Assembly (NCBI RefSeq): GCF_000281715.2
Contig: NZ_CP124576.1
Coordinates: forward strand, 4,127,001 to 4,191,000
DNA: 64,000 bases
Source: Sphingobium sp. AP49
GTDB taxonomy: Bacteria; Pseudomonadota; Alphaproteobacteria; Sphingomonadales; Sphingomonadaceae
Reading direction: 5' to 3'
Each line of letters opens with the position of its first letter. Within the stretch, counting starts at the first letter, position 1. A model generated the notes under the pieces. The model worked only from the letters and a program-made list of their open reading frames with translations, ran no database searches and had not been told where the DNA came from. The position numbers and the translations under genes are program-made. Below, in pieces: positions 24,465 through 37,489 of this stretch.

Positions 24465-24483
24465 CCACTGCCGTAATCAGGCC
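24458..24483. terminator. Stem-loop built from the two convergent stop codons
   Basis: GGCCTGA (24458-24464) pairs with TCAGGCC (24477-24483). The arms include the TGA stop of the phosphatase and the complementary stop of the OsmC gene. Confidence 0.5.
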
Positions 24484-24857
24484 AGCGTCGTCGCGATCGG
24501 CAGGCCCTGCTTCAACGTCAATGTAACCGGCGTCCGCTCGGCAACATCGGCCAGTCGTGCCCGCTGTTCCGCGTCCAGCCCGACGATCGTCAGCGTCCGG
24601 TCGATCCGCTTTTCCTCCTTGCCCGACAGGCGCAGCGCGACATCGAGCGATTCAAGCGGCCAGCCCTTCTTCTCCGCATACATGCGCAGCGTAATTGCGG
24701 TGCACGCCCCCAGCGCCGCCAGCAGCAGGTCATAGGGCGCGGGGCCGAGATTGGCGCCGCCCAGCGTCTCCGGCTCGTCGGCGGTGATGGCATGACCGCC
24801 GACGATGATCTCCGTGCGATATCGGTCCTTGCCGATATGGGCGCTACCCTGGGCCAT
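24477..24857 (-). CDS. OsmC/Ohr family protein
   Basis: A 126-residue OsmC-family protein; members reduce organic hydroperoxides through a reactive Cys pair or act as uncharacterised OsmC-like proteins. Only one conserved Cys is visible, in AALGACTAITLRMYAE at about residue 52; the second peroxidatic Cys of classical Ohr/OsmC near the N-terminal third is absent (residues there read TADEPETLGGANLGP). It belongs to the YhfA-like subgroup by appearance. Last gene of the unit hypothetical - pirin - OsmC; AAGGAG precedes the ATG, 11 bases after the pirin stop. Confidence 0.87.
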   Translation of the reverse strand: MAQGSAHIGKDRYRTEIIVGGHAITADEPETLGGANLGPAPYDLLLAALGACTAITLRMYAEKKGWPLESLDVALRLSGKEEKRIDRTLTIVGLDAEQRARLADVAERTPVTLTLKQGLPIATTLA

Positions 24858-24868
24858 GATGCTGCTCC

Positions 24869-25765
24869 TTATACCGGGAGGGGGATGAATTCATGCTCTT
24901 CCGGCACCGGGGCGAAGCGCTGGGCCTGCCAGTCGGCCTTTGCCTGCTCGATCCGCTCGGGCGAGGAAGAAACGAAGTTCCAGAAGATATGGCGCTTCTC
25001 GGGCAGCGGCTCGCCGCCCATCAGCATCAGCCGGGTCGCCCCCTTGGCGCGCAGGATGATCTCCGCGCCGGGCTTGAACACGATCAGTTCGCCGGTCGCA
25101 AAGCCGCCGGTCTGACCGATCACCTCGACTGCGCCCTGCACCACATAGATGGCGCGTTCGACATGCTCGGCCTTGAGTTGGTAGCGGGCGCCGTCCTGCA
25201 GCGCGATATCGGCATAGACCATGTCGGAGAAGGTCTTGACCGGCGACACCAGACCGTCGGAGCTGCCGGCGATCAGGGTCAGGCGCGTGCCCGCATCCTC
25301 GATCGTCGGGATTTCGTCGGCCTTGTGATGGGCGAAACCCGGATCGACCTCCTCCGCCTGCGTCGGCAGCGCAACCCAGGTCTGCAGGCCAAACAGCTTG
25401 CCGCCCTTGGCGCGATTCTCGTCACTGGTGCGCTCGCTATGGACGATGCCGCTGCCCGCGGTCATCCAGTTGACCTCGCCGGGGCGGATCGACTGGACCG
25501 ATCCGACGCTGTCGCGGTGTAGGATTTCGCCCTCCAGCAGATAGGTGACGGTGGCAAGACCGATATGCGGATGCGGACGCACATCCAGCCCCTCGCCGCT
25601 GTTGAAGGTCGCCTCGCCCATCTGGTCGAAGAAGATGAAGGGGCCGACCATGCGGCGATGCGCCGATGGCAGCGCGCGGCGGACCGAGAAGCCATCGCCC
25701 AGATCGCGGACCGGGGGCAGGATGACGAGATCGACGCCGTCGACCTCTGAAGTGCGGATGGACAT
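24869..25765 (-). CDS. Pirin family protein (first copy)
   Basis: A 298-residue bicupin of the pirin family, cytosolic, metal-binding; characterised members include quercetin 2,3-dioxygenase-type enzymes and redox-linked regulators. The N-terminal cupin has [23 protein letters not shown] with the metal-site histidines, then [23 protein letters not shown]; the C-terminal cupin carries [15 protein letters not shown]. Middle gene of the operator-preceded unit. A second, distinct pirin is encoded 0.5 kb upstream under its own copy of the operator. AAAGGA lies seven bases before the ATG. Confidence 0.9.
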
Positions 25766-25792
25766 GGGACGGATCCTTTCTGGCGGGTGCGA

Positions 25793-26113
25793 TCAGGCGC
25801 CGAGCAGCGCCATCGCCTCGATCTGGGCACGGCTATAGCCTTGTGCGGACAGGGTGGGAATGTGACGTTCGGCGATCCGGCGGGTACGGCCGGATTCGCA
25901 GAGAAACTGGCGCACATCGTGCAGATGCGGGGCGAGCGTGACCGGCTGGGCCTTTTTCGGTCCCAGGATCGCGTCGAGCGCATGGCCGATCCGCGAACGG
26001 ACCGGGCCGGCGGCGGCGGGCTCGCCACAGCCGCAATCGGCAACGGCGCTCAAGGTGGCCTTCACGTCCTGCCATTCGGCGGGGCTGAGGCGCGGGGTGG
26101 CGATGTTCAGCAT
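25793..26113 (-). CDS. Unrecognised 106-residue protein, first gene of the pirin-OsmC unit
   Basis: A small soluble protein I cannot name. Features: LSPAEWQDVKATLSAVADCGCGEP with a Cys-Gly-Cys, LDAILGPKKAQPVTLAPHLHDVRQFLCESGRTRR and a helical end (YSRAQIEAMALLGA). It may bind metal through CGC and the His pair, but this is only a suggestion. It is the first gene after operator copy A (92 bases) and lies 27 bases before the pirin gene, so it belongs to the regulon. Confidence 0.65.
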   Translation of the reverse strand: MLNIATPRLSPAEWQDVKATLSAVADCGCGEPAAAGPVRSRIGHALDAILGPKKAQPVTLAPHLHDVRQFLCESGRTRRIAERHIPTLSAQGYSRAQIEAMALLGA

Positions 26114-26187
26114 GAGAGGGCTCCCTGTTCGTCTGGACCGTTTCGATGACTTCCTTCTAGCGCGGCGACGCTTTCAGGATCAGCCAG

Positions 26188-26220
26188 ATAAAATCGGCCA
26201 TTCTGTTCTACATTCTGGAA
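26188..26220 (-). promoter_or_regulatory. LysR-type operator, copy A
   Basis: On the plus strand: ATAAAAT (26188-26194), ten bases, GTTC (26205-26208), nine bases, GAA (26218-26220). The GTTC starts 92 bases before the start codon of the 106-residue protein. Copies B and A share 28 of 36 bases over the extended site. Confidence 0.7.
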
Positions 26221-26258
26221 AAGAAGGAGCGTGTCATCGGCGCCCCTTCCCTTTATCA

Positions 26259-26957
26259 TCAGGCCGCGTCGACCAGCACGATCTCACTATCCTCGATCGC
26301 CGTCACGCGGATCACGTCAAGATCGCTGATCGCCACGCCGTCGCGGGCATTGGCACGCACATCATCAATCTGAATCGCCCCGGTCGCCGGCACCAGATAG
26401 GCCTTGCGATCCTTGCCGATCGGATATTCGGCGCTCTCGCCGGCCTTCAGCGTCGCGGCAACCACGCGCGCATCGGTGCGGATCGGCAGTGCGTCATTGT
26501 CATTCTCATAGCCCGACGCCAGCGTCACGAACTGGCCGCTCCGCTCGCCCTTGGGGAAAGGCCGGGCACCCCAGCTCGGCGCTTCGCCGTCGCGGGTCGG
26601 GATGATCCAGATCTGGAAGATCTTCGTCGTCACATCCTCGCGATTATATTCCGAATGGGTGATGCCGGTGCCGGCCGACATGACCTGCACGTCGCCAGCC
26701 TCGGTCCGGCCCTTGTTGCCCAGATTATCCTGGTGGGTGATCGCCCCTTCGCGAACATAGGTGATGATTTCCATGTCGCGATGGGGGTGCGGCGGAAAGC
26801 CGGTATTGGGCGCGATCGCGTCGTCATTCCAGACACGCAGATTGCCCCAATGAACGCGGGCAGGATCATGATAGCCCGCGAACGAAAAATGATGCTTGGC
26901 ATCCAGCCAGCCATGATTGGCGCCGCCCAGGCTGCCGAAGGGACGAAGTTCGATCAT
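26259..26957 (-). CDS. Pirin family protein (second copy)
   Basis: A 232-residue pirin/YhaK-type bicupin, shorter than the first copy. The N-terminal part reads MIELRPFGSLGGANHGWLDA and the metal-site cupin motif is PPHPHRDMEIITYVREGAITHQDNLGN, followed by EAGDVQVMSAGTGITHSEYN. YhaK-like pirins are monomeric and have been linked to redox sensing. The start at 26957 has AGGAGA seven bases upstream; the extension to 27080 has no support and would overlap the operator. It is a single-gene unit divergent from lysR, with operator copy D between. Confidence 0.9.
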   Translation of the reverse strand: MIELRPFGSLGGANHGWLDAKHHFSFAGYHDPARVHWGNLRVWNDDAIAPNTGFPPHPHRDMEIITYVREGAITHQDNLGNKGRTEAGDVQVMSAGTGITHSEYNREDVTTKIFQIWIIPTRDGEAPSWGARPFPKGERSGQFVTLASGYENDNDALPIRTDARVVAATLKAGESAEYPIGKDRKAYLVPATGAIQIDDVRANARDGVAISDLDVIRVTAIEDSEIVLVDAA

Positions 26958-27044
26958 CTGATATCTCCTGCGGGCGGCACATCCAGGATGGGGCCGCCCT
27001 GTCGAAGATCCAGATAGCGCTTGAATGCTTTCCCGATCAGATGG

Positions 27045-27077
27045 ATAAAATCCATCGAAACGTTCCAGGAAATCGAA
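27045..27077 (-). promoter_or_regulatory. LysR-type operator, copy D
   Basis: ATAAAAT (27045-27051), ten bases, GTTC (27062-27065), nine bases, GAAC (27075-27078). The GTTC is 105 bases before the pirin start codon. Here the dyad is perfect (GTTC/GAAC), and ATGGAT-AAA-ATCCAT (27041-27055) forms a second palindrome over the A+T-rich half. It sits directly before the lysR gene, which suggests autoregulation. Confidence 0.7.
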
Positions 27078-27079
27078 CA

Positions 27080-28009
27080 TTGCATAATCCCGGCACCCCG
27101 ACCTTCGACCAGCTCCGCATCTTCCTGACCATCGTCGACACCGGCAGTTTCGCCGCCGCGGGGCGCAAGCTCAACCGTGCCGTCTCGGTCATCAGCTATG
27201 GCATCGCCAATCTGGAGGCGCAGCTGGGCGTGATGCTGTTCGACCGGGAAGGCACCCGCAAGCCGCAGCTGACGGTCGCCGGCCGGGCGCTGCTGGCCGA
27301 AGCACGCAGCATCGCCCATGGCATGGACGGGCTGCGGGCCAAGGTGAAGGGCTTGCTCGACGGGCTGGAGGCGGAGGTCAATCTGGCCGTCGACGTGATG
27401 TTGCCGGCCGAACGGCTGGGCAAGGTGCTGCGCGCCTTCGCCAAGGAATTTCCGACGGTACAGTTGCGCCTCCATGCCGAAGCGCTGGGCGCGATCGTGG
27501 CGATGGTGCTGGACCGGGGCGCGGTGATCGGCCTGTCCGGGCCGCTGTCGGCCGGGGTCGAGGGAATCGAGAGCATGGCGGCCGGGCTAGTGCCGATGGT
27601 CCCTGTTGCTGCGCCCGACCATCCGCTCGGCCGGATGGAGGCGATCGCGCCGGGCGCCGGGCGCGATTATACCCAGTTGGTGCTGACCGACCGTTCGCGC
27701 TTTACCGAAGGCCGCGATTTCTCGGTCAGCAGCCCCAAGACCTGGCGCCTTGCCGATCTGGGTGCGAAACATGCGCTGCTGCGCGAGGGGATTGGGTGGG
27801 GCAATATGCCGCTGCCGATGATCGAGGCGGATCTGGTCGCCGGCACTTTGGTCCGGCTGGCCATGCCCGATCATCCCGGCGGCACCTATCGCTTCTCGGG
27901 CATCTGGCGCCGCGACACCCCGCCCGGCCCGGCCGCGTCCTGGCTGATCGACCAGTTCGTCGCCTTGGGCGCGGACGATCGCGAGGCGGCCGGGATGAGC
28001 GACGTCTAG
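27080..28009 (+). CDS. LysR-family transcriptional regulator
   Basis: A LysR-type regulator of 309 residues from this start. The winged helix-turn-helix is at once recognisable: FDQLRIFLTIVDTGSFAAAGRKLNRAVSVISYGIANLEAQLGV. The remaining 230 residues form the effector-binding domain. An ATG at 27041 would add 13 residues but places operator D inside the reading frame; the TTG at 27080 has AGGAA eight bases upstream and gives the normal LysR N-terminal length, so I prefer it. It is the only regulator within the 24.5-35.5 kb cluster and the natural candidate to bind the four T-N11-A type operators. Effector unknown. It converges with the DUF1275 gene by a four-base overlap. Confidence 0.88.
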   Translation: MHNPGTPTFDQLRIFLTIVDTGSFAAAGRKLNRAVSVISYGIANLEAQLGVMLFDREGTRKPQLTVAGRALLAEARSIAHGMDGLRAKVKGLLDGLEAEVNLAVDVMLPAERLGKVLRAFAKEFPTVQLRLHAEALGAIVAMVLDRGAVIGLSGPLSAGVEGIESMAAGLVPMVPVAAPDHPLGRMEAIAPGAGRDYTQLVLTDRSRFTEGRDFSVSSPKTWRLADLGAKHALLREGIGWGNMPLPMIEADLVAGTLVRLAMPDHPGGTYRFSGIWRRDTPPGPAASWLIDQFVALGADDREAAGMSDV

Positions 28010-28701
28010 GCGGGTTCGCGCGCGGCTGGATGCAGCGCGCAGGCGGCCGTACCGGCGAGGACCAGCGCACCGGCCAGAAGCAGCGGCGAAACCAGTCCGC
28101 CATGGGTGACCAGCGCCGCGCCGATGGCCGCGCCCAGGAAGATGGCGGCCACGCTGCCGATACGGCGGGCGATATTGGGATTGCTACCGCCAGCCAGACT
28201 GGAATCGGCCGCAATGCCCGTCAGGGTCAGGGTCAGCACCGTGGTGGTGAGGTCCGGCACCTTGAGCTGGCGAATGGTCGAATTGCGAAACCCCATGGCA
28301 AGGCCGGTGAGCGCGATGATCACATAGAGGCTGGTACCGGGCGATTGGGCGGGAATGTCGAAGCCGACAGCGACACCGGCGGCTATCCACAGCAGCGCCG
28401 CCTCGATCAGCGCAGCCAACATCAGCCAGCGACGCAGCGGCAGACCGGCATGCCCCTTCCCCACGCGCCCAGCGACCAGCGCGCCGATCAGGAACGCCGC
28501 AATCGCCACCAGATAGGGGGCGACGCGGAAGCCCGGCGTGCCCGCAGCGGCAAAGCCCAGAAAGACGATGTTGCCTGTCATGTTCGCCGTAAACACCTTG
28601 CCCAGGCCCAGCACGCTGATCGCGTCGACCAGGCCCGTGGTCACGGACAGGAGCAGTAGCAGCCAGGGCAATGGCGCGGTGGAGGCTTTGGTGGCGGTCA
28701 T
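28006..28701 (-). CDS. DUF1275 (YoaK-like) membrane protein
   Basis: A 231-residue integral membrane protein with six predicted helices; DUF1275 landmarks are SVTTGLVDAISVLGLGKVFTANMTGNIVFLGFAAAG and GFRNSTIRQLKVPDLTTTVLTLTLTGI. The family is uncharacterised, probably a small transporter. AAGGGA precedes the ATG at 28701. Last gene of the unit VOC - DoxX - porin - DUF1275; the stop codon overlaps the lysR stop from the other strand. Confidence 0.85.
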   Translation of the reverse strand: MTATKASTAPLPWLLLLLSVTTGLVDAISVLGLGKVFTANMTGNIVFLGFAAAGTPGFRVAPYLVAIAAFLIGALVAGRVGKGHAGLPLRRWLMLAALIEAALLWIAAGVAVGFDIPAQSPGTSLYVIIALTGLAMGFRNSTIRQLKVPDLTTTVLTLTLTGIAADSSLAGGSNPNIARRIGSVAAIFLGAAIGAALVTHGGLVSPLLLAGALVLAGTAACALHPAAREPA

Positions 28702-28735
28702 GGCACTATCCCTTGGTTCAATGTCAAAATGGCCG

Positions 28736-30094
28736 TCAGAAACGGAAATTGCTTTCAAGGCCCAGCATGGTGATCGTCTTGGCCGGGCCGGTGTCGCGGA
28801 TGAAGGCGCCCGGCGCGAAGGCGGATAAGGAGGCGGACAATTCCCATTCGGCGCTGGCCTGCCAGGCGATCGTCGCCTCGGCCTCCTTGCCGATGAAGCG
28901 CGCGTCGCTGTCGCCCGGCGCGCGGATCAGATTGCCGGGAATGTCATAGACGCCGTCCCCCGTGGAGTAGCGCCAATAGGCCATGGCAGCGAGGCTGGCG
29001 GAGACGCCCTCGCCCAGATTGCCGCTGATCCGTGGATTGACGCTGATAATGTTGGTCGGGCCAACCGGCGACAATTCGCCGAAATATTTGCCCTTGGGGA
29101 ACAGCGCATTGAAGGTGCCGAGCTGGCCGTCATCGGCTTTCTTGTCGCCACTGACGATGTTGACGCGCAGGGTCGCATCCGGCGCCAAGGGCAAAGCGGG
29201 GAATGTGCGGCCGATCTCGGTGCCCAACGTCCAGGCGGCGATACGCTGGCCATCATAGTCGCCGAACTGATAGACGCCCTCAACATTCCAGTGCCAGTCG
29301 CCCCGCACGCCATGGCTGCGCAGCCCCAGGCTGTGCCGCACTTCCCGCCCCTCGTCGCCGCCGAACCGGGCCGCACGGTTGCGATAGCCCAGATAATAGA
29401 GGTCGATCTCGGGCAGGCTCGCATAGGCCCCCCACAAGGCCTTGGTGTCGGATGTCGCATCGTCGAAACTGTGGAGGCCGGGTTGCACGGGCTTCACCGC
29501 CAGCAGACTGACCGTCGCGTTGCCAATCCGCATGTCGGCCCGTGCGCCGTCAAAGGCGAGGGGGACATTGGGACCATAGCGGGTGCCCACCAGCCGTTCG
29601 GTGCCAAGCGACAGCATCTGCCGCCCGGCACGCACGGTAACCGGTCCAAGATCCGCCTCGGCAAAGCCCTGTAGCAGATCGACGCGGCTTTGATCCACTG
29701 GCCCCGCAGAGGGCGCGACGCCGACGGCATAGGCGATCATCGGCTGGACAAAGGCGCGGACCTTGCCGACATGCAGATCGGCATAGGGCAAAGCCCGCAG
29801 CCAGAGATAGGCGTCGTCGCGCGCCTGTGCCCCACCCCAGAGATTATTGTCATAGCTTTCGACCCGGGCACGCAACTCGATGCCGGTCGACAACCAGGCA
29901 TCGTCGCCCAGGGGGATATATTTGAACGGGCCGGTCCAGTGATGGCCACGCTTCTTGGCATCGGCGAGGTCAGACCAATCCTCCTCATAGCGGGTGATGC
30001 TGAGCGTCGGTGCCTGCCACGCCTCACGCGGCTGGGCAGCGGCCGGGAATGGCAGCGCCAGCAGCGCGAGGAAAGGCAGGCCATGCTTAGGCAT
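28736..30094 (-). CDS. Alginate-export-like outer-membrane porin
   Basis: A 452-residue outer-membrane beta-barrel. Signal peptide MPKHGLPFLALLALPFPAAAQ. The mature start (RYEEDWSDLADAKKRGHHWTGPFKYIPLGDDAWLSTGIELRARVESYDN) and the following strands match the alginate_exp family (AlgE-like, 18-stranded), and the chain ends in a terminal Phe (ESNFRF). In accessory catabolic clusters these porins usually import small organic acids or aromatics rather than export alginate. The start overlaps the DoxX stop by eight bases. Confidence 0.82.
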   Translation of the reverse strand: MPKHGLPFLALLALPFPAAAQPREAWQAPTLSITRYEEDWSDLADAKKRGHHWTGPFKYIPLGDDAWLSTGIELRARVESYDNNLWGGAQARDDAYLWLRALPYADLHVGKVRAFVQPMIAYAVGVAPSAGPVDQSRVDLLQGFAEADLGPVTVRAGRQMLSLGTERLVGTRYGPNVPLAFDGARADMRIGNATVSLLAVKPVQPGLHSFDDATSDTKALWGAYASLPEIDLYYLGYRNRAARFGGDEGREVRHSLGLRSHGVRGDWHWNVEGVYQFGDYDGQRIAAWTLGTEIGRTFPALPLAPDATLRVNIVSGDKKADDGQLGTFNALFPKGKYFGELSPVGPTNIISVNPRISGNLGEGVSASLAAMAYWRYSTGDGVYDIPGNLIRAPGDSDARFIGKEAEATIAWQASAEWELSASLSAFAPGAFIRDTGPAKTITMLGLESNFRF

Positions 30095-30509
30095 CTGCGG
30101 CGCGCCGGTTAGCGATCATGGCGACCGCGATGAAACCGCCAATCAGGCCGATATGCTCGAAAAAGGCGTTGGTCGCCATGAAGCGGTCCTGCCCGGCCGG
30201 CATCGCCCAGAAGGCATTGGCGGTAAAAGCCGCCAGCAGGGTGAAGACGCCCAGCATCCCTGCTCCCAGCCAGACCAGGCGGCCGGTCAGGATCAGCACG
30301 GGGCCGACCAGTTCAAGGCCGATCGTCAACGCCGCCCACAGCGCTGGCGGGCTCATGCCGAAATGCGCCTGCTCGGCGACGGCACCCTGCCAGTCGGTCA
30401 GCTTGACGATACCGCCCAGCAGATAGGCACTGGTCAGCGCCAGCCGGGCGATGAACCAGGTCGGCCGCCAGTCCAGGATGGCGGCCACGAAACGGGGGGT
30501 GAACGCCAT
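30087..30509 (-). CDS. DoxX family membrane protein
   Basis: A 140-residue four-helix membrane protein of the DoxX/DoxD type (LALTSAYLLGGIVKLTDW, FGMSPPALWAALTIGLELVGPVLILTGR, helix three FTLLAAFTANAFW, helix four IGLIGGFIAVAMI). DoxX proteins associate with quinone- or thiosulfate-linked redox enzymes in some organisms. The ATG at 30509 has GGGGAG eight bases upstream; a GTG at 30518 that overlaps the preceding stop (GTGA) is an alternative start. Confidence 0.85.
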   Translation of the reverse strand: MAFTPRFVAAILDWRPTWFIARLALTSAYLLGGIVKLTDWQGAVAEQAHFGMSPPALWAALTIGLELVGPVLILTGRLVWLGAGMLGVFTLLAAFTANAFWAMPAGQDRFMATNAFFEHIGLIGGFIAVAMIANRRAADA

Positions 30510-30514
30510 GTCCT

Positions 30515-31414
30515 TCACTCCCCAGCGACACTGTGAACTTCGGCGATATAGCCGCCGGGGAAGCGGACAATCGCGGCCTGGCGATCACCTTCTGCATGGG
30601 CCGGGACCAGCGTCTCGACGCCCGCCGCCTTAGCCTTGTCCAGCGTGACGGACAGGTTGGACACTGCATAGCCGGTCATATCACGGCCATAGGGCCAGGG
30701 CAGTTGCCCGTCCGACACGATGACGCTCATCTTGCCATAGCCCGACGTCAACCGAATGCGGCGATACGTCTTGCCCGGCTGGCCGATTTCCGCGCCGGGT
30801 GCTGCCTTGTCATCCGACGTCACCTTGGCATGGGCAAAGCCCGTCCACTGCTTGACGAACAGGTCGGCCGCATCAGCGGTCAGGTAGATGCGGTTTTCCG
30901 GCACGGTCGCCAGCGCCGGATAGCTGGGCTTGGTAGTATGCCAATAAAGCTGCATGTTCACGCCGCCGGCCCATTGCACCACGACGTCACGGCCGATCGG
31001 ATCGGGGAAGCTCGTGATCAGGCGGGTTGCCCCATGCTTGACTGCGGACGCGACCGCACCGTCCATGTCGCTGACAAGATAGCCGGTCCGCTCCGCACCG
31101 AAGGGATAGGGAATGGGCGTCAGGAAACCGAAAACGGAAATGGTGCCGGCCGGCGTCAGTGCGAGCTGCGACTTGGTCTTGCTGGCGGTGGGCGTAACCT
31201 GAAACGCGCCCTGCTTGCTGGTGGTGCCGCCGAATGTGGCGGTGAAGCTGGCAACGAAGCGATCGAAATCCTCCGGCGCCACATAGACATGGGTGGTGTC
31301 ATATTGCGGGCCGACGGAATAGTCGGCGGTCACGGGTGCGGTGGGTTTTGCAGGCGCGACGGCAGGGCTGATGGCGACCAGGGCAGTCGCCACCATCAGG
31401 GTGAAACGCTTCAT
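30515..31414 (-). CDS. Exported VOC/glyoxalase-like protein
   Basis: A 299-residue protein with a signal peptide (MKRFTLMVATALVAISPAVAPA) and two vicinal-oxygen-chelate-like halves: THVYVAPEDFDRFVASFTATFGG to GAERTGYLVSDMDGAVASAVKHGATRL, and YLTADAADLFVKQWTGF to TGYAVSNLSVTLDKAKAAGVETLVPAHAEG. VOC enzymes include glyoxalases, extradiol dioxygenases and antibiotic-resistance proteins; a periplasmic one is uncommon. Reaction unknown. It is the first gene after operator copy C (105 bases), leading DoxX, porin and DUF1275. Confidence 0.78.
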   Translation of the reverse strand: MKRFTLMVATALVAISPAVAPAKPTAPVTADYSVGPQYDTTHVYVAPEDFDRFVASFTATFGGTTSKQGAFQVTPTASKTKSQLALTPAGTISVFGFLTPIPYPFGAERTGYLVSDMDGAVASAVKHGATRLITSFPDPIGRDVVVQWAGGVNMQLYWHTTKPSYPALATVPENRIYLTADAADLFVKQWTGFAHAKVTSDDKAAPGAEIGQPGKTYRRIRLTSGYGKMSVIVSDGQLPWPYGRDMTGYAVSNLSVTLDKAKAAGVETLVPAHAEGDRQAAIVRFPGGYIAEVHSVAGE

Positions 31415-31501
31415 GTCTGTTGCTCCGGTTGGAGAGGGCGAACCCTCTCGATCGATGTGGCAGAACCTGTTTAGGCAGAGGTCTAAAGACTAACGATCCG
31501 A

Positions 31502-31534
31502 ATAATATAGACGATTATGTTCGATATTATAGAA
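31502..31534 (-). promoter_or_regulatory. LysR-type operator, copy C
   Basis: ATAATAT (31502-31508), ten bases, GTTC (31519-31522), nine bases, GAA (31532-31534). The GTTC is 105 bases before the VOC start codon. The whole element lies in a strongly A+T-rich gap, just after the stop of the amidohydrolase from the preceding unit. Confidence 0.7.
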
Positions 31535-31543
31535 TGAACTGCG

Positions 31544-33469
31544 TCACACCGCCCAGCAGCCGCAGCCCAGCGTTCCCCAGAAGCTCTGCACATCGGCAGC
31601 GGGAACATTGGCGCCCAGCGCTGCGGCATGGTCATGGCCATGCACGCCACAGGCAGAGTGACAACCGCAGGCCGAAGCCAGCTTCTTCGCAGTTTCGTCC
31701 CGGCGGTAATAGCCGCCAAAGGTTGCGACCGGCGACCAGTCCGGCATCGCCTTGGGCGCGACCGGCGCCAGCGCGCCATAATCGCCCTCGCCATAGACGA
31801 TCTTGCCACCCAGCATGGTCAGCACCGAACGGAGATGCGCGATCTCATCCTCCGGCACCGAGAAATAATCGTCCGACAGCAAGGCAAGATCGGCCAGTTG
31901 CCCGGCCTTGATCTGGCCCTTCTTGCCGACCTCGTTCGAGAACCAGGTGTTCTGCTCGGTCCACAGGCGCAGCGCGGTCTCGCGATCCAGGCGGTTGCGA
32001 ACCGGATAGAGGGCCAACCCGCCGACCGTCTTCGACGTGACCAGCCAGCTGAGCGACACCCAGGGATTATAGCTCGCCACCCGGGTCGCATCCGTGCCGG
32101 CGCCCACCGGCAGGCCTGCCGCCATCATCCGCTTGATCGGCGGGGTGGCCTCAGCGGCCTTAGCGCCATAACGTTCGACGAAATATTCGCCCTGGAAGGC
32201 CATGCGATGCTGCACGGCGATACCGCCGCCCAGCGCCGCGATCCGGTCGATATTGCGCTCGCTGATCGTCTCGGCATGGTCGAAGAACCAGTTGAGGCCC
32301 TGCAGCGGGATATCGCGATTGACCTTCTCGAACACATCCAGGGCGCGGCCGATCGTCTGGTCGTAGGTCGCGTGCATGCGCCAGGGCCAGCGCCGTTCGG
32401 CAAGCAGGCGGATGACCGGCTCCAGATCGCCCTCCATCTGCGGCGGCATGTCGGGGCGGGCGACACGGAAATCCTCGAAGTCGGCCGCCGAATAGACCAG
32501 CATCTCGCCCGCGCCATTGTGGCGATAGCTATCATCGCCATCGCCCGGCTTGATCTTGGTCGACCAGGTGGCGAAGTCCTTCAGTTCTTCCTTCGGCTTC
32601 TGGGTAAAGAGATTATAGGCGATGCGCAGCGTCAGTTCGCCATCCTTGTGCAACTTGTCGATGACCTCATAATCGTCGGGATAATTTTGCGACCCGCCGC
32701 CCGCGTCGATCACGCTGGTAACGCCCAGGGAATTCAGCTCGCGCATGAAATGCTTCGTGCTGTTCACCTGATATTCCGGCGGTAGCTTCGGCCCCTTGGC
32801 AAGGGTCGCATAGAGGATCGTCGCATTAGGCTGAGCCAGCAGCAGGCCGGTCGGGTTGCCCTGCGCATCGCGGACGATCTCGCCACCCGGCGGATTGGGC
32901 GTATCCTTGGTATAGCCCACTGCCCGCAGCGCGGCGGCGTTCAGCAGGGCGCGGTCGTATAGGTGCAGGATGAAGACCGGAGTCTCGGGCGCGACGGCAT
33001 TGATCTCCTCGATCGTGGGCAGGCGCTTCTCGGCAAACTGATGTTCAGTAAAGCCGCCCACGACGCGCACCCATTGCGGCGGCGGCGTATTTTCGGCCTG
33101 GCGCTTCAGCATCGCCATCGCCTCAGCCAGGCTCGGCACGCCTTCCCAGCGCAGTTCCATATTATAGTTGAGGCCACCCCGGATGACATGGATATGGCTG
33201 TCGATGAGGCCCGGGATCAGGCGACGCCCCTTGGCATCGATAACGATCGCGTCGGCGCCGGCGGCGGCGCGGACCTCACCCTCTGTCCCGACCGCCAGAA
33301 ACTTGCCATCGCGGATCGCGACCGTGTCGGCGACCGGATTTTCCCGATCCAGCGTCGTGACCTTGGCATTGGTGATGAGGATATCCTTGCGGGTCATGGC
33401 GAAGCTTTCGGTGGCGGTGAGAAGAGCGGTGGTGGCAGCGCTGGCGAGCGCCTGGCGACGGGTGATCAT
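31544..33469 (-). CDS. Tat-exported YtcJ-like amidohydrolase with Cys/His-rich tail
   Basis: A 641-residue amidohydrolase. Twin-arginine leader MITRRQALASAATTALL. Metal-dependent hydrolase motifs: LIPGLIDSHIHVIRGG (HxH), FDHAETISERN and GAGTDATRVASYNPW (final Asp). Overall order matches YtcJ/AepA-type exoenzymes that hydrolyse N-formyl or amide bonds. The C-terminal 40 residues are unusual: ACGCHSACGVHGHDH followed by a linker and GTLGCGCWAV, six Cys and four His that look like an added metal-binding tail. The ATG overlaps the XapX stop by four bases (ATGA). Last gene of the unit that starts with the isochorismatase. Confidence 0.87.
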   Translation of the reverse strand: MITRRQALASAATTALLTATESFAMTRKDILITNAKVTTLDRENPVADTVAIRDGKFLAVGTEGEVRAAAGADAIVIDAKGRRLIPGLIDSHIHVIRGGLNYNMELRWEGVPSLAEAMAMLKRQAENTPPPQWVRVVGGFTEHQFAEKRLPTIEEINAVAPETPVFILHLYDRALLNAAALRAVGYTKDTPNPPGGEIVRDAQGNPTGLLLAQPNATILYATLAKGPKLPPEYQVNSTKHFMRELNSLGVTSVIDAGGGSQNYPDDYEVIDKLHKDGELTLRIAYNLFTQKPKEELKDFATWSTKIKPGDGDDSYRHNGAGEMLVYSAADFEDFRVARPDMPPQMEGDLEPVIRLLAERRWPWRMHATYDQTIGRALDVFEKVNRDIPLQGLNWFFDHAETISERNIDRIAALGGGIAVQHRMAFQGEYFVERYGAKAAEATPPIKRMMAAGLPVGAGTDATRVASYNPWVSLSWLVTSKTVGGLALYPVRNRLDRETALRLWTEQNTWFSNEVGKKGQIKAGQLADLALLSDDYFSVPEDEIAHLRSVLTMLGGKIVYGEGDYGALAPVAPKAMPDWSPVATFGGYYRRDETAKKLASACGCHSACGVHGHDHAAALGANVPAADVQSFWGTLGCGCWAV

Positions 33470-33714
33470 GCGTCCTGCTTCCGGTTTGTCGGCAATTGCC
33501 CAAGGATGTGATGGGCGCAGTCGGTGGTGACGAAGGCGGTCAGTTCCGTGCGATCAAGCAGCCGCTTGGCGACCGGGACGATCTGCTCCCCGACCAGTAT
33601 CCCGGCCAGCCCGATCAGGGCGATGACCGGCGGAGCGGGAGAACGGACGCCAAGCAGGCTGTAGACGATGCCGACCAGCAGCCCGGCGCCCAGCGAGAGA
33701 AGATAGGCTTTCAT
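33466..33714 (-). CDS. XapX domain protein
   Basis: An 82-residue protein with the XapX (DUF1427) core MKAYLLSLGAGLLVGIVYSLLGVRSPAPPVIALIGLAGILVGEQIVP, which forms two membrane helices, followed by a short soluble tail with Cys-Ala-His-His. The family has no established function; it is found in many proteobacterial accessory operons next to hydrolases and amidohydrolases, as here. Coupled to the downstream amidohydrolase by ATGA. Confidence 0.85.
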   Translation of the reverse strand: MKAYLLSLGAGLLVGIVYSLLGVRSPAPPVIALIGLAGILVGEQIVPVAKRLLDRTELTAFVTTDCAHHILGQLPTNRKQDA

Positions 33715-33737
33715 GGGTCCGTTCTCCCCGGTTTCGA

Positions 33738-34577
33738 TCAGGCCTGGATGAAGGCGAGGATGTCGGCGTTCAGCACGTCGGCATTCACCGTCAGCATGCC
33801 ATGCGAATAGCCCTCATAGATTTTGAGCGTCGCGTTCGGCAGGATTTCGGCCTGCAACACACCGGCATTCTTGTAGGGGACGACCTGGTCGTCATCGCCA
33901 TGCAGAACCAGGGTCGGCACGGTGATTGCCGTGAGATCATCGGTCTGATCGGTTTCGGAGAAAGCCTTGATCCCCTCAGAATGAGCAAGCGCGCTGCCCA
34001 TCATGCCCTGGCGCCACCAATTTTCGATGACGGCAGGCTTCACGTCAGCACCGTCGCGGTTGAAGCCATAGAAGGGGCCAGCCGCGACGTCATGGAAGAA
34101 TTGCGCACGGTTGGCGGCCAAGCCGGCACGCAAACCGTCAAACACTTCGATCGGCAAGCCGCCCGGATAGCGATCGGTCTTCAGCATGATCGGCGGGACG
34201 GCGCTGACCAGCACTGCCTTGGCGACGCGCCCCTGCGGCAGGCCATGGCGGGCGACATAGGCCGCGACCTCGCCGCCGCCCGTCGAATGGCCGATATGGA
34301 TGGCATTGCGCAGGTCGAGATGTTCGGCGACGGCGGCTGCGTCGGCGGCATAATGATCCATGTCATGACCGAAATCGACCTGGGCGGAACGGCCATGACC
34401 GCGGCGGTCATGGGCAATGACGCGATAGCCCTTCGACAGGAAGAACAGCATCTGCGCGTCCCAGTCGTCCGCCGACAGCGGCCAGCCATGGTGGAACATG
34501 ATCGGCTGGGCATCCTTGCTGCCCCAATCCTTGTAGAAGATCTGGACGCCGTCCTTGGTGGTGACGAAATTGGTCAT
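33738..34577 (-). CDS. Alpha/beta hydrolase, non-heme chloroperoxidase-like
   Basis: A 279-residue soluble alpha/beta hydrolase. Nucleophile elbow GHSTGGGEVA (catalytic Ser near residue 99), oxyanion segment FHHGWPLSADDWD, acid in LHGDDDQVVPY and catalytic His in GYSHGMLT. The AHDRRGHGRS and elbow sequence are those of cofactor-free haloperoxidases/aryl esterases, whose physiological role is ester or lactone hydrolysis and perhydrolysis. GAAAGGA precedes the ATG. It follows the isochorismatase gene by about 100 bases that contain a stem-loop. Confidence 0.92.
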   Translation of the reverse strand: MTNFVTTKDGVQIFYKDWGSKDAQPIMFHHGWPLSADDWDAQMLFFLSKGYRVIAHDRRGHGRSAQVDFGHDMDHYAADAAAVAEHLDLRNAIHIGHSTGGGEVAAYVARHGLPQGRVAKAVLVSAVPPIMLKTDRYPGGLPIEVFDGLRAGLAANRAQFFHDVAAGPFYGFNRDGADVKPAVIENWWRQGMMGSALAHSEGIKAFSETDQTDDLTAITVPTLVLHGDDDQVVPYKNAGVLQAEILPNATLKIYEGYSHGMLTVNADVLNADILAFIQA

Positions 34578-34634
34578 GGGAATATCCTTTCACGGGGCGG
34601 GAGAAAAAGAAGAAGAGAAAGACAGGTGAGGGAA

Positions 34635-34666
34635 GCGGCCGGGTCGGGAGATGTCGGCCCGGCCGC
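34635..34666 (-). terminator. Stem-loop between isochorismatase and hydrolase genes
   Basis: GCGGCCGGG (34635-34643) pairs with CCCGGCCGC (34658-34666), 13 bases after the isochorismatase stop. On the minus strand it is followed by a long pyrimidine tract (34596-34632), so it may terminate or attenuate part of the transcripts inside the operon. Confidence 0.5.
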
Positions 34667-34679
34667 AGAATGGCGGGGC

Positions 34680-35339
34680 TTAGTGGCCGCCTTCCGATGC
34701 GCCGAACATGGTCTTGGCGTAGGTGATGCCCAAGCCATAGGCGCCGCCCCATTTGCGGGCGATACCGGTGGTCATGTCGTAGGTTTCGGTACGTGCCCAG
34801 TCGCGCTGAAGTTCCAGCAGATATTGCAGCGAGGTGATCGGACGGGCGCCCGCCTGGATCATGCGCTCGACGGCGCGTTCATGGGCTTCCTCGCTGATAT
34901 CACCGCTGGCATCGGTGATGACATAGGCCTCGAACCCCTGTTCGATGGCCGACAGGACCGGACCGACGATGCAGACGCTGGTCCACAGACCGGCGAACAC
35001 CAGACGTTCCTTGCCGATGCGGTTCACTTCCTCGATCACCGCAGCATCTTCCCAGGTGTTCATCGAGGTGCGATCGAGCATCGGCTGGTTGTTGAAGGCT
35101 TCGGTGATCTCGCTGAACATCGGGCCGGAAAAGCTCTTTTCAGCGACGGTGGTGAGGATGGTGGGGACATTGAAGCCGGCGGCGGCGTTGGAAACCAGCG
35201 CGGCATTGTTGCGCAGCAATTCAGGCGCGATCGACTTGGTGGCAAAAGCCATCTGCGACTGGAAATCGATGAGGACCAGGGCGTGGTTGCTGGGATTCAG
35301 CAGGGCCTTGGCAGGGGTCGGGGTGGCGGTGATCGACAT
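34680..35339 (-). CDS. Isochorismatase-family (YcaC-like) hydrolase
   Basis: A 219-residue cysteine hydrolase of the isochorismatase superfamily. The catalytic triad is visible: Asp in LVLIDFQSQM, Lys in VAEKSFSG and Cys in AGLWTSVCIVG. It resembles YcaC-type hydrolases of unknown substrate (amide or ester bonds). The ATG at 35339 has AGGAGGAG upstream; the extension to 35408 is unsupported. First gene after operator copy B; leads hydrolase, XapX and amidohydrolase. Confidence 0.9.
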   Translation of the reverse strand: MSITATPTPAKALLNPSNHALVLIDFQSQMAFATKSIAPELLRNNAALVSNAAAGFNVPTILTTVAEKSFSGPMFSEITEAFNNQPMLDRTSMNTWEDAAVIEEVNRIGKERLVFAGLWTSVCIVGPVLSAIEQGFEAYVITDASGDISEEAHERAVERMIQAGARPITSLQYLLELQRDWARTETYDMTTGIARKWGGAYGLGITYAKTMFGASEGGH

Positions 35340-35425
35340 GGGTAACTCCTCCTGAAACTCTGTGGCGCCCGGTGCGTCTGGGCTGAAAACAGGTCTATGG
35401 CGAAGCATCTTTGCGAAACAGGCGT

Positions 35426-35458
35426 ATAAATTCGGCTATATCGTTCTATATTTCTGAA
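35426..35458 (-). promoter_or_regulatory. LysR-type operator, copy B
   Basis: ATAAATT (35426-35432), ten bases, GTTC (35443-35446), nine bases, GAA (35456-35458). The GTTC is 104 bases before the isochorismatase start codon. It also lies about 100 bases before the divergent AcvB/VirJ-like gene, so an effect on that gene is possible. Confidence 0.7.
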
Positions 35459-35555: not shown

Positions 35556-37007
35556 ATGACGGTTCGTCAACGGCTCGCTGCCCTTGCCATGGTCGTTATG
35601 ATCCTGCTGGCGCCAGCCTCCGATGCTGGCGAAGCACCGCTTCATCTGGTGGCTCATGAAAGCAGCTACAGCCTCGCGCCCCTCGGCGAAATCCATCTCC
35701 ATCGGCCCGCTAGCGTCCCCCGCGCCATCGTCCTGCTGTTGTCCGACAAAAATGGTTGGGGTAGCGCTGAAACGGTCATGGCCCGCAGCTTGGCGAAACA
35801 GGGCTTTCTGGTCGCAGGTGCCTCTACGCCGTCGCTGGTCCAAAGGCTCGAAAAGGCACCTGGCAAGTGCATAAATCCCAATTACGCTCTGATTGCTCTG
35901 TCGCGCGATGTCCAGCATCGAGCAGAGGTCGATCGTTATCACAAGCCGATAGTGGCCGGGCTCGGCGCGGGTGCGACATTGGCGTTCGGCGCGCTCGCCC
36001 AATGGCCCGATGGCAGCTATCAAGGGGTAATATCGATCGATCCGGTACCCAGCCTTGCCGGTCGCAAGCCCTGGTGCGCGGCGCCCGGTTTCGCCGCCGG
36101 TCGCGTCACCGGTCCGCATGCCGGATGGCGCTTCGCCCCCAATCGCCACAATCGGATCGGCTGGATCGCGTTACAGTCGGCCGAACCGCCGAGCATCGCT
36201 CCGCAGCGTCTACTCCATTTCGTGGCCGCCGTGCCCGGCGCGCGTCTGATCCGCCTCCCCCGGCAAGGCGATAGTACCCAACCCCCGAACCAATTAAACG
36301 AGCAGGTGGGAAGCTCGATCCTGTCGCTGCTGCCCCGCCCGGCAGCGGCTCCGCTACCGGGACACATACCGCTCCCTGACATGCCACTTACTCTGGTTCC
36401 GGCAACCGGCAAAGGAGTCGATGACCTGATGGCGATCGCTTATTCCGGCGATGGCGGCTGGGTCGGCATCGACCGTGATCTTGCGACCCAACTGGCCGGC
36501 GCGGGCATACCCGTAGTCGGGATCGACAGCCTTGCCTATTTCTGGACCGCCCGAACACCACAAGGCGCTGGGCAGGATCTGGCACAGTTGATCCGGGCGT
36601 TCAGTCAGCGCTGGCAAAAGCGGCGCGTCTTGCTGATCGGCTATAGTTTCGGGGCAGATGTCATGCCTTATATGGTGGACAATCTGGACCTCGATGCACG
36701 CTCGCGCATCGATAGCGTGGCGTTGCTTGGCCTCAGTGCTACCGCCGACTTCCAGTTCCACCTGTCATCCTGGCTGGATATCGATTCCGCCAACGCGCGC
36801 CCTACACTCCCGGCAATCCAACGAATGAAAGGGATCCGGCTACTGTGCGTGCGCGGGCAGGTAGAAGCTGAGAGCGCTTGTGCTGCGATCCCGCCGGGGC
36901 AAGCGCAGCAATTCATCGTACCGGGCGATCATCACTTCAACCGCAATGCGGCGCTGCTTGCACGGATCATTCTTGGCCGCAGGAAGGCTGGATTCGTGGC
37001 GCGCTGA
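35556..37007 (+). CDS. AcvB/VirJ-family serine hydrolase
   Basis: A 483-residue exported protein with a signal peptide (VRQRLAALAMVVMILLAPASDAG). It has two hydrolase-like halves: an N-terminal one (IVLLLSDKNGWGSAETVMARSLAKQGFLVAG) and a C-terminal VirJ domain with AIAYSGDGGWVGIDRDLATQLAGAG and nucleophile elbow LIGYSFGADVMPYMV. AcvB of Agrobacterium hydrolyses lysyl-phosphatidylglycerol in the periplasm and pairs with the synthase LpiA; no lpiA is in this window. GAGGAG six bases before the ATG at 35556 fixes the start. Confidence 0.85.
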   Translation: MTVRQRLAALAMVVMILLAPASDAGEAPLHLVAHESSYSLAPLGEIHLHRPASVPRAIVLLLSDKNGWGSAETVMARSLAKQGFLVAGASTPSLVQRLEKAPGKCINPNYALIALSRDVQHRAEVDRYHKPIVAGLGAGATLAFGALAQWPDGSYQGVISIDPVPSLAGRKPWCAAPGFAAGRVTGPHAGWRFAPNRHNRIGWIALQSAEPPSIAPQRLLHFVAAVPGARLIRLPRQGDSTQPPNQLNEQVGSSILSLLPRPAAAPLPGHIPLPDMPLTLVPATGKGVDDLMAIAYSGDGGWVGIDRDLATQLAGAGIPVVGIDSLAYFWTARTPQGAGQDLAQLIRAFSQRWQKRRVLLIGYSFGADVMPYMVDNLDLDARSRIDSVALLGLSATADFQFHLSSWLDIDSANARPTLPAIQRMKGIRLLCVRGQVEAESACAAIPPGQAQQFIVPGDHHFNRNAALLARIILGRRKAGFVAR

Positions 37008-37412: not shown

Positions 37413-37489
37413 GTGGTGCCCGGGGACGGATTCGAACCGCCGACACTGCGATTTTCAATCGCATGCTCTACCAACTGAGCTACCCGGGC
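37413..37489 (-). tRNA. tRNA-Phe(GAA)
   Basis: Cloverleaf on the minus strand: acceptor stem GCCCGGG/CCCGGGC, D arm AGCTCAGTTGGTAGAGCA, anticodon stem TGCGA/TCGCA around loop TTGAAAA (anticodon GAA), T arm GGCGGTTCGAATCCGTC, discriminator A and a genome-encoded CCA (37413-37415). Confidence 0.95.

Follow-up and report, generated by a model that had tools for sequence, protein, structure and literature searches.

Four copies of the composite motif ATAA-N13-GTTC-N9-GAA, one of them beside a gene for a LysR-type regulator (lysR), were noticed in a 64,000-nt stretch of Sphingobium sp. AP49 (contig NZ_CP124576.1, positions 4,127,001 to 4,191,000 of the forward strand; this whole stretch is referred to as the window). 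The question raised by this locus is whether the copies are operators of the adjacent regulator and define a regulon, as a preliminary description had proposed. A pattern scan of the window retrieved all four copies at the places given before (A, 26188; D, 27045; B, 31502; C, 35426), all on the + strand and facing minus-strand genes, in the uniform orientation claimed. The distances from GTTC to the start codon were recomputed from the coordinates as 92, 105, 105 and 104 bases (starts at 26113, 26957, 31414 and 35339), identical to the earlier values. The statement that the copies lie in A+T-rich gaps holds with a nuance for D only, which ends 2 bases before the likely lysR start, TTG 27080. 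By chance, 0.01 matches are expected in the window, and none of 100 shuffles reached four. It had been argued that many equal matches at random places would speak against operators; the exact pattern has exactly four matches in the whole 4,506,188-base genome, all in the window, and a reversed control pattern has one forward and one reverse match. The second part of the motif, TTC-N9-GAA, is a dyad with the T-N11-A core of LysR sites, found at the presumed target promoters, and lysR, with its HTH_1 and LysR_substrate domains, follows copy D directly. One site precedes each of four gene groups with 12 genes in all, in agreement with the dozen or so estimated before. The four-operator observation is thus confirmed as real, and the earlier reading of a LysR regulon with four predicted operators is supported.

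Since the pattern had been derived from the sites themselves, a matrix was built without the window. The loci of relatives used were the best 80 of 380, with LysR proteins 76-97% identical to that of the window; the closest, with 97% identity, is from Sphingobium scionense. The resulting D matrix comprises 79 lysR-adjacent sites (74 different) from these relatives; the locus L005 (97% identical) was dropped. When all window positions on both strands were scored, the four sites ranked at the top (scores in Table 1), and the next position reached -0.1 bits. Column shuffling of the matrix, repeated 200 times, gave a fourth-best score of 0.13 at most, versus the 23.0 observed. Chance pattern matching is ruled out as an explanation by the shuffles, the genome count and this independent matrix. 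A longer, different pattern, allowing up to 3 mismatches, matched A, B and C and missed D; two extra places that it found (L085 and L086) were not credited, their best matrix scores being only 3.5 and -3.8.

Footprinting in relatives, proposed earlier as a check, gave a concordant picture. The lysR-adjacent pattern is present in 80 of 80 loci at no more than 3 mismatches of 11 (no mismatch in 57, one in 18, two in 4 and three in 1). For comparison, 1600 windows of 160 bp were taken at random from these loci, and some of them may contain real sites; 14 had no mismatch, 1 had one, 11 two and 77 three. At a cutoff of 12 bits, chosen by the analyst, the loci contain, besides the 80 lysR-adjacent sites, 73 further ones, of which three are in L005. 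Sixty-eight of the 73 lie at most 700 bases before homologues of window genes: isochorismatase 34, hydrolase 9, orf106 8, VOC 8, DUF1275 7, OsmC 1 and pirin1 1 (the counts for isochorismatase, VOC and orf106 include L005). The eight before orf106 are counterparts of operator A, besides one lysR-adjacent site labelled orf106; altogether seven lysR-adjacent sites are labelled with a gene other than pirin1. The OsmC label, given to a site at 17059 of L070, is doubtful, the gene being 346 bases away. Among the five sites with no homologue as target, three precede doxX-like genes (L051, L052, L068) and one a transporter-like gene (L059), as named by reading; for the fifth (L070, at 17199) no target gene was named.

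Twelve further stretches from other genomes of the family, hand-picked from pattern matches, were added; some of their genes were named by BLAST to window proteins and some by reading. Sites were found before isochorismatase (L091, L092, L094, L097), pirin (L093, L095, L098, L102), doxX-like (L095, L096; by BLAST) and hydrolase (L091) genes, as well as before an FMN-reductase/azoreductase-like gene (L093; by reading) and an outer-membrane-like protein (L099). The target in L100 is unclear, and L101 has no site by the matrix. Because the sites of relatives precede varied sets of homologues, the operons appear to be cut differently between genomes while the operator stays with them. Two of the added stretches carry two opposed operator copies each: L091 (2237-2333, genome G011), with starts 64 bases apart between divergent hydrolase and isochorismatase genes, and L095 (2211-2363, genome G046), between divergent pirin and doxX-like genes.

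The position of the operator relative to the promoter was analysed on the gene strand, with numbering from the first T of TTC (position 1). The element TTTTAT (ATAA on the other strand) occupies positions 28-33 of the module. It is followed by a CTGATC-like -35 region, whose T39 is found without exception in six of the seven site classes and in 75% of the unassigned class. A TA of the -10 box is found at positions 62-63 in 97% of 73 pirin-class sites and in 89% of 75 other sites (7 of them lysR-adjacent sites with another label); elsewhere between positions 45 and 83, the pooled 75 show a TA in 0-4%. None of these columns belongs to the D matrix, and all four window sites have TA at the same place. 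The constant distance from operator to start codon is best read as a promoter constraint, because the operator-to-promoter spacing is fixed. As a rule, the recognition site of LysR proteins lies near -65. If transcription starts about 7 bases past the -10 box, the dyad centre would be near -65 and TTTTAT beside the -35 box, in the classic LysR layout, with TTTTAT placed like an activation-site element. A two-site recognition/activation layout is described for LysR operators in the available part of a published account (PMC11739112).

Copy D overlaps likely expression signals of lysR. The likely start of this gene was assigned from its Shine-Dalgarno sequence and from GTG or ATG codons that relatives have there or no more than 2 bases away. 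Its likely -10 box, GATAAA at 27044-27049, overlaps the ATAA of D, and GCAA, the complement of its -35, is a conserved feature of the pirin/lysR class that the consensus of the other classes lacks. The N9 of lysR-adjacent sites favours ..TTTCCTC, other sites being more A/T-rich there. This bias is explained by the likely lysR Shine-Dalgarno sequence that D carries, part of the N9 of D thus being under a second constraint. From the site position, copy D probably also represses lysR (negative autoregulation). The stretch 27067-27082 combines the likely Shine-Dalgarno sequence with the recognition dyad, which would limit the evolution of the lysR-adjacent operator.

Table 1. Predicted operators and promoter elements, and genes, at the lysR locus (coordinates are those of the window)
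Feature	Position	Strand	Remarks
Operator A	26188..26220	-	TTC-N9-GAAC-N13-TTAT on the gene strand, 5' of orf106-pirin2-osmC; 23.7 bits (D matrix)
Operator D	27045..27077	-	same module, between pirin1 and lysR; 50.8 bits
Operator B	31502..31534	-	5' of the voc-doxX-porin-DUF1275 group; 28.4 bits
Operator C	35426..35458	-	5' of the isochorismatase-hydrolase-XapX-amidohydrolase group; 23.0 bits
-35-like CTGATC, operator A promoter	26183-26178	-	
-10 box CTAGAA, operator A promoter	26155..26160	-	module positions 61-66, conserved TA column
-35-like CTGATC, pirin1 promoter	27040-27035	-	
-10 box CTATCT, pirin1 promoter	27012..27017	-	conserved TA column
-10 box CTAAAC, operator B promoter	31469..31474	-	conserved TA column
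-10 box ATAGAC, operator C promoter	35393..35398	-	conserved TA column
Likely lysR promoter TTGAAT-17-GATAAA	27021..27049	+	overlaps operator D; read from sequence; not matched by consensus scan
Likely lysR Shine-Dalgarno AGGAAA	27067..27072	+	inside the D dyad, 7 nt before TTG 27080
lysR	27080..28009	+	LysR-type regulator; PF00126 HTH_1 E 2.6e-17, PF03466 LysR_substrate E 2.1e-23; likely start TTG 27080
pirin1	26259..26957	-	group D; 41% identical to E. coli YhhW, 27% to YhaK
orf106	25793..26113	-	group A; no significant family match
pirin2	24869..25765	-	group A; Pirin and Pirin_C
OsmC-like protein	24477..24857	-	group A
voc, VOC/glyoxalase-like	30515..31414	-	group B; weak: Glyoxalase_4 E 0.019, below cutoff
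DoxX family protein	30087..30512	-	group B; 29% identity over 112 residues to E. coli YqjF, E 8e-06
Outer-membrane protein (porin)	28736..30094	-	group B; Alginate_exp family
DUF1275 protein	28006..28701	-	group B
Isochorismatase-fold hydrolase	34680..35339	-	group C; best NCBIfam model YcaC, below its cutoff
Alpha/beta hydrolase	33738..34577	-	group C
XapX/DUF1427 protein	33466..33714	-	group C
Amidohydro_3 amidohydrolase	31544..33469	-	group C

The 12 genes form four tandem minus-strand groups with gaps of at most 102 bases, which are predicted to be operons from this spacing; lysR is divergent. Beyond them, a VirJ-domain gene (35556-37007) is divergent from operator C, and a tRNA-Phe (gaa) gene at 37414-37489 on the minus strand is the sole tRNA gene found in the window.

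In order to evaluate which protein binds the operators, the co-occurrence of sites and regulator was determined in 119 genomes of the family, using a close variant of the pattern and taking LysR as present at E 1e-60 or better. The pattern was found in 27 of 42 genomes with this LysR and in 9 of the 77 that lack it (Fisher 7.6e-9, with kinship not taken into account); the reversed control pattern occurred in 9 of the 119, 3 of them with LysR. The recognition helices were then compared over 175 different lysR upstream regions (3 duplicates dropped), with a site rule that ignores the two outer bases of the dyad, and sorted on the residue after RA in RAVSVISY, which we take to correspond to Gln29, a DNA contact in BenM. 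A site was present in 135 regions. When the residue is V or T, the outer pair is T-A (TTC..GAA) in 103 cases and A-T in 1; when it is Q, T-A is found in none and A-T in 17. The L, I and A rows add 5 T-A pairs. Taken together, the adjacent LysR is probably the binder of the four operators.

Relatives of this LysR are patchily distributed, being found in 31 of 299 genomes of a phylum sample (E 1e-35) and in 18 of 385 of a class sample (E 1e-45). They also occur in 246 plasmid records (E 1e-35 or better), the most frequent genera being Sinorhizobium (114), Rhizobium (42) and Agrobacterium (20); in 180 of the 246 the best place shows less than 60% identity, and 116 records are typed as conjugative. 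Six stretches (L143, L146, L147, L148, L150, L152) contain a LysR 46-49% identical with a RAQSV helix, an ATC-N9-GAT dyad upstream and the same TTAT spacing. A PDB search with LysR gave 8j4n as best match, with a generic LysR name only, and weaker ones to YhaJ (9irz, DNA-binding domain; 8h58, effector domain). All NCBIfam models for LysR among the matches listed (25 of 45) scored far below cutoff.

The E. coli regulator YhaJ provided a further comparison. In the available part of the source it is an activator, and induction of its promoters by hydroquinone or dinitrotoluene (DNT) needs YhaJ (PMC5031710). The set compared comprised yhaJ/yhaK, yqjF, yhhW, ybiJ, ygiD and yceP, against a background of 1592 sequence windows (4 x 50 kb of K-12, both strands). 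With the D matrix, background windows as good as the target numbered 0 for yhhW, 1 for ybiJ and 3 for yqjF, so that at least three E. coli YhaJ promoters have a similar operator. With a matrix of the non-D sites, 10 windows were as good as yhaK. The D-matrix controls punC, allA and metE gave 95, 325 and 729, and none was counted as found. A 66-column matrix still placed yhhW first, with worse results for yqjF, yhaK and ybiJ and somewhat better ones for ygiD and yceP. At the protein level, the best match of YhaJ in the AP49 genome is this LysR (82 versus 49 bits). In the reverse search among six E. coli LysR proteins, YhaJ scored 87.4, AllS 87.0 and PunR 83.6 bits, and a tree with the same six placed LysR with these three at 98/97, the inner order being without resolution. 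LysR is not claimed as an exact YhaJ orthologue, since AllS and PunR score like YhaJ and the tree order is not resolved. The likeness suggests that LysR works like YhaJ.

From these results it is highly probable that the four copies are operators of the adjacent LysR, which would activate four operons in response to a quinone-like inducer and repress its own gene. In the proposed mechanism, one dimer of the LysR tetramer would bind TTC-N9-GAA about 65 bases before the predicted transcription start, and the other would contact TTTTAT beside the -35 box. The inducer-bound protein would then activate pirin1, orf106-pirin2-osmC, voc-doxX-porin-DUF1275 and isochorismatase-hydrolase-xapX-amidohydrolase. 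At D the same binding would cover the lysR -10 box, start and Shine-Dalgarno sequence, leading to negative autoregulation. The inducer would most likely be a quinone, a hydroquinone or a related aromatic electrophile, as for YhaJ, and the regulon would detoxify it.

Several observations weigh against this reading. The -35 region of copy B is poor, and a consensus sigma-70 scan matched none of the four promoters (3 matches elsewhere, 2.5 expected). The exact pattern is missing from 15 of the 42 family genomes that have this LysR. In the helix comparison, other outer pairs occur in the V (4), T (4) and Q (1) rows, and 8 of 109 V, 9 of 20 T and 20 of 38 Q upstream regions have no site by the rule; single I, H and P rows also lack one, the last being YhaJ, with a yhaK site devoid of TTAT. 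A tree was made from 110 rows after thinning of close relatives, without the recognition helix; 69 of the rows have both traits. On it, 3 changes of the residue and 4 of the operator were counted, with 1 independent pair on supported branches and 3 on all. The covariation of outer base and residue is therefore clear and its independence weak, too little for a claim of significance. In E. coli, the D matrix is weak or nil for ygiD (65), yhaK (95) and yceP (466 of 1592 windows as good), the punC control scores like yhaK, and a place before yhhZ (L105, 3777-3809) scores 11.7, versus 10.7 for ybiJ and 8.5 for yqjF; to our knowledge yhhZ has not been named as a YhaJ target. Selectivity drops when only the 15-base dyad is used (yhhW 1, ybiJ 27, yqjF 56 of 1592). 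LysR is only 29% identical to YhaJ and about equally close to AllS and PunR, and for several regulon genes a connection with quinones is not evident.

Other explanations were weighed on the same evidence. The operators could be real and belong to another LysR or regulator class, with the adjacent LysR a coincidental neighbour: the genome holds 24 matches to YhaJ, T-N11-A is common to many LysR proteins according to the portion of the source at hand (PMC6449761), and binding by the adjacent protein is deduced from sequence. This is nevertheless very improbable in view of the lysR-adjacent copy in all 80 loci, the genome-level co-occurrence and the outer pair that follows the helix residue of this very LysR. 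About equally improbable is that ATAA serves solely as the -10 box of a divergent promoter, outside the operator. The overlap with the likely lysR -10 at D would fit, but ATAA is also present at A and B, where no divergent gene exists, and within the site classes other than pirin each base of TTAT is kept in 86-100% of cases, counts that are partly circular and to that extent less telling, the sites having been picked with a matrix containing TTAT. A third alternative, that LysR mainly represses the four operons and the inducer relieves it, is unlikely. TTTTAT touches the -35 region, and some LysR proteins do repress, such as PA3225 of P. aeruginosa, mainly a repressor, in whose deletion the pirin gene PA1210 rises, as told in the available text (PMC5527654); the dyad at about -65 and the non-consensus -35 and -10 boxes fit activation better, as does the activator role of YhaJ (PMC5031710).

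For the signal itself, the balance is closer. A quinone-like inducer appears rather probable by analogy; quinones are favoured because pirin, DoxX and azoreductase-like genes lie at the sites and because, on an Azotobacter plasmid, a LysR 66% identical and equipped with the site has neighbours annotated as pirin, quinol monooxygenase, wrbA and doxX. It is somewhat less than probable that the signal is another one (reactive chlorine, organic peroxides, lipophilic phenols or a plant aromatic) and that the likeness to YhaJ concerns DNA recognition only. OsmC, isochorismatase and hydrolase genes are known in other stress responses too, LysR and YhaJ are distantly alike (29% overall), and the passages available on BexR name no inducer for its hydrolase/redox/FMN reductase/pirin operon (PMC2796861). 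Speaking for quinones instead are the DoxX-like and azoreductase-like genes at the sites, the WrbA and quinol monooxygenase genes beside the Azotobacter relative, and the response of YhaJ-dependent promoters to hydroquinone (PMC5031710).

LysR regulons of such layout are already known. No description of the present regulon, of its 12 genes or of its distribution among sphingomonads or Alphaproteobacteria was found among the open-licence papers listed in the literature searches. Sphingomonads are known degraders of aromatics. In these bacteria, a dozen genes with little annotation (pirins, XapX, DUF1275, isochorismatase, VOC-like) can now be assigned to a proposed regulon with a testable class of inducers. 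The operator known for YhaJ of E. coli, which is used in explosives sensors, is extended to another class, and a case of changed LysR protein-DNA specificity becomes testable at one residue. In a wider sense, one module (TTC-N9-GAA, TTTTAT, -10 at 62) may mark a quinone-stress regulon across Alphaproteobacteria into Gammaproteobacteria, with operons reshuffled between genomes and the module moving along with each promoter, with the helix residue (V/T/L/I versus Q) setting the outer pair (TTC/GAA versus ATC/GAT), and with YhaJ and perhaps BexR as branches; as a whole, this is considered possible rather than probable.

Among other known systems, BexR of P. aeruginosa is a LysR protein that, in the passages at hand, activates an operon with a hydrolase, a redox protein, an FMN reductase and a pirin and is positively autoregulated and bistable (PMC2796861); quinone reductase activity has been reported for that FMN reductase, in the accessible part of another paper (PMC4051601). 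Its regulon (PA1202-PA1205, PA2698) resembles the present one in joining a LysR with a hydrolase/redox/pirin operon, the gene content being compared from papers only, and differs in that the site position here suggests autorepression. No comparable operator appears in the available portions of PMC5527654 and PMC9068703. The CatR/BenM/ClcR type, as far as the source at hand describes it (PMC6449761), shares the T-N11-A dyad and the divergent regulator gene, and it also shares the two-site layout; its consensus is AkACC-N5-GGTAT, in contrast to TTC-N9-GAA. Among the six E. coli LysR proteins compared, PunR, AllS and YhaJ come closest, but the regions before punC and allA are without a convincing operator copy. 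The likeness to the YhaJ system extends to a LysR gene divergent from a pirin-like gene (yhaK in E. coli, pirin1 here), to a dyad TC-N9-GA (published for E. coli as TCA-N7-TGA) near the regulator start, and to DoxX and pirin targets in both regulons. The two differ in arrangement and content: the E. coli regulon genes are scattered on the chromosome, whereas the 12 genes of AP49 lie in one 11-kb cluster, with isochorismatase, XapX, amidohydrolase, OsmC, porin and DUF1275 genes in addition.

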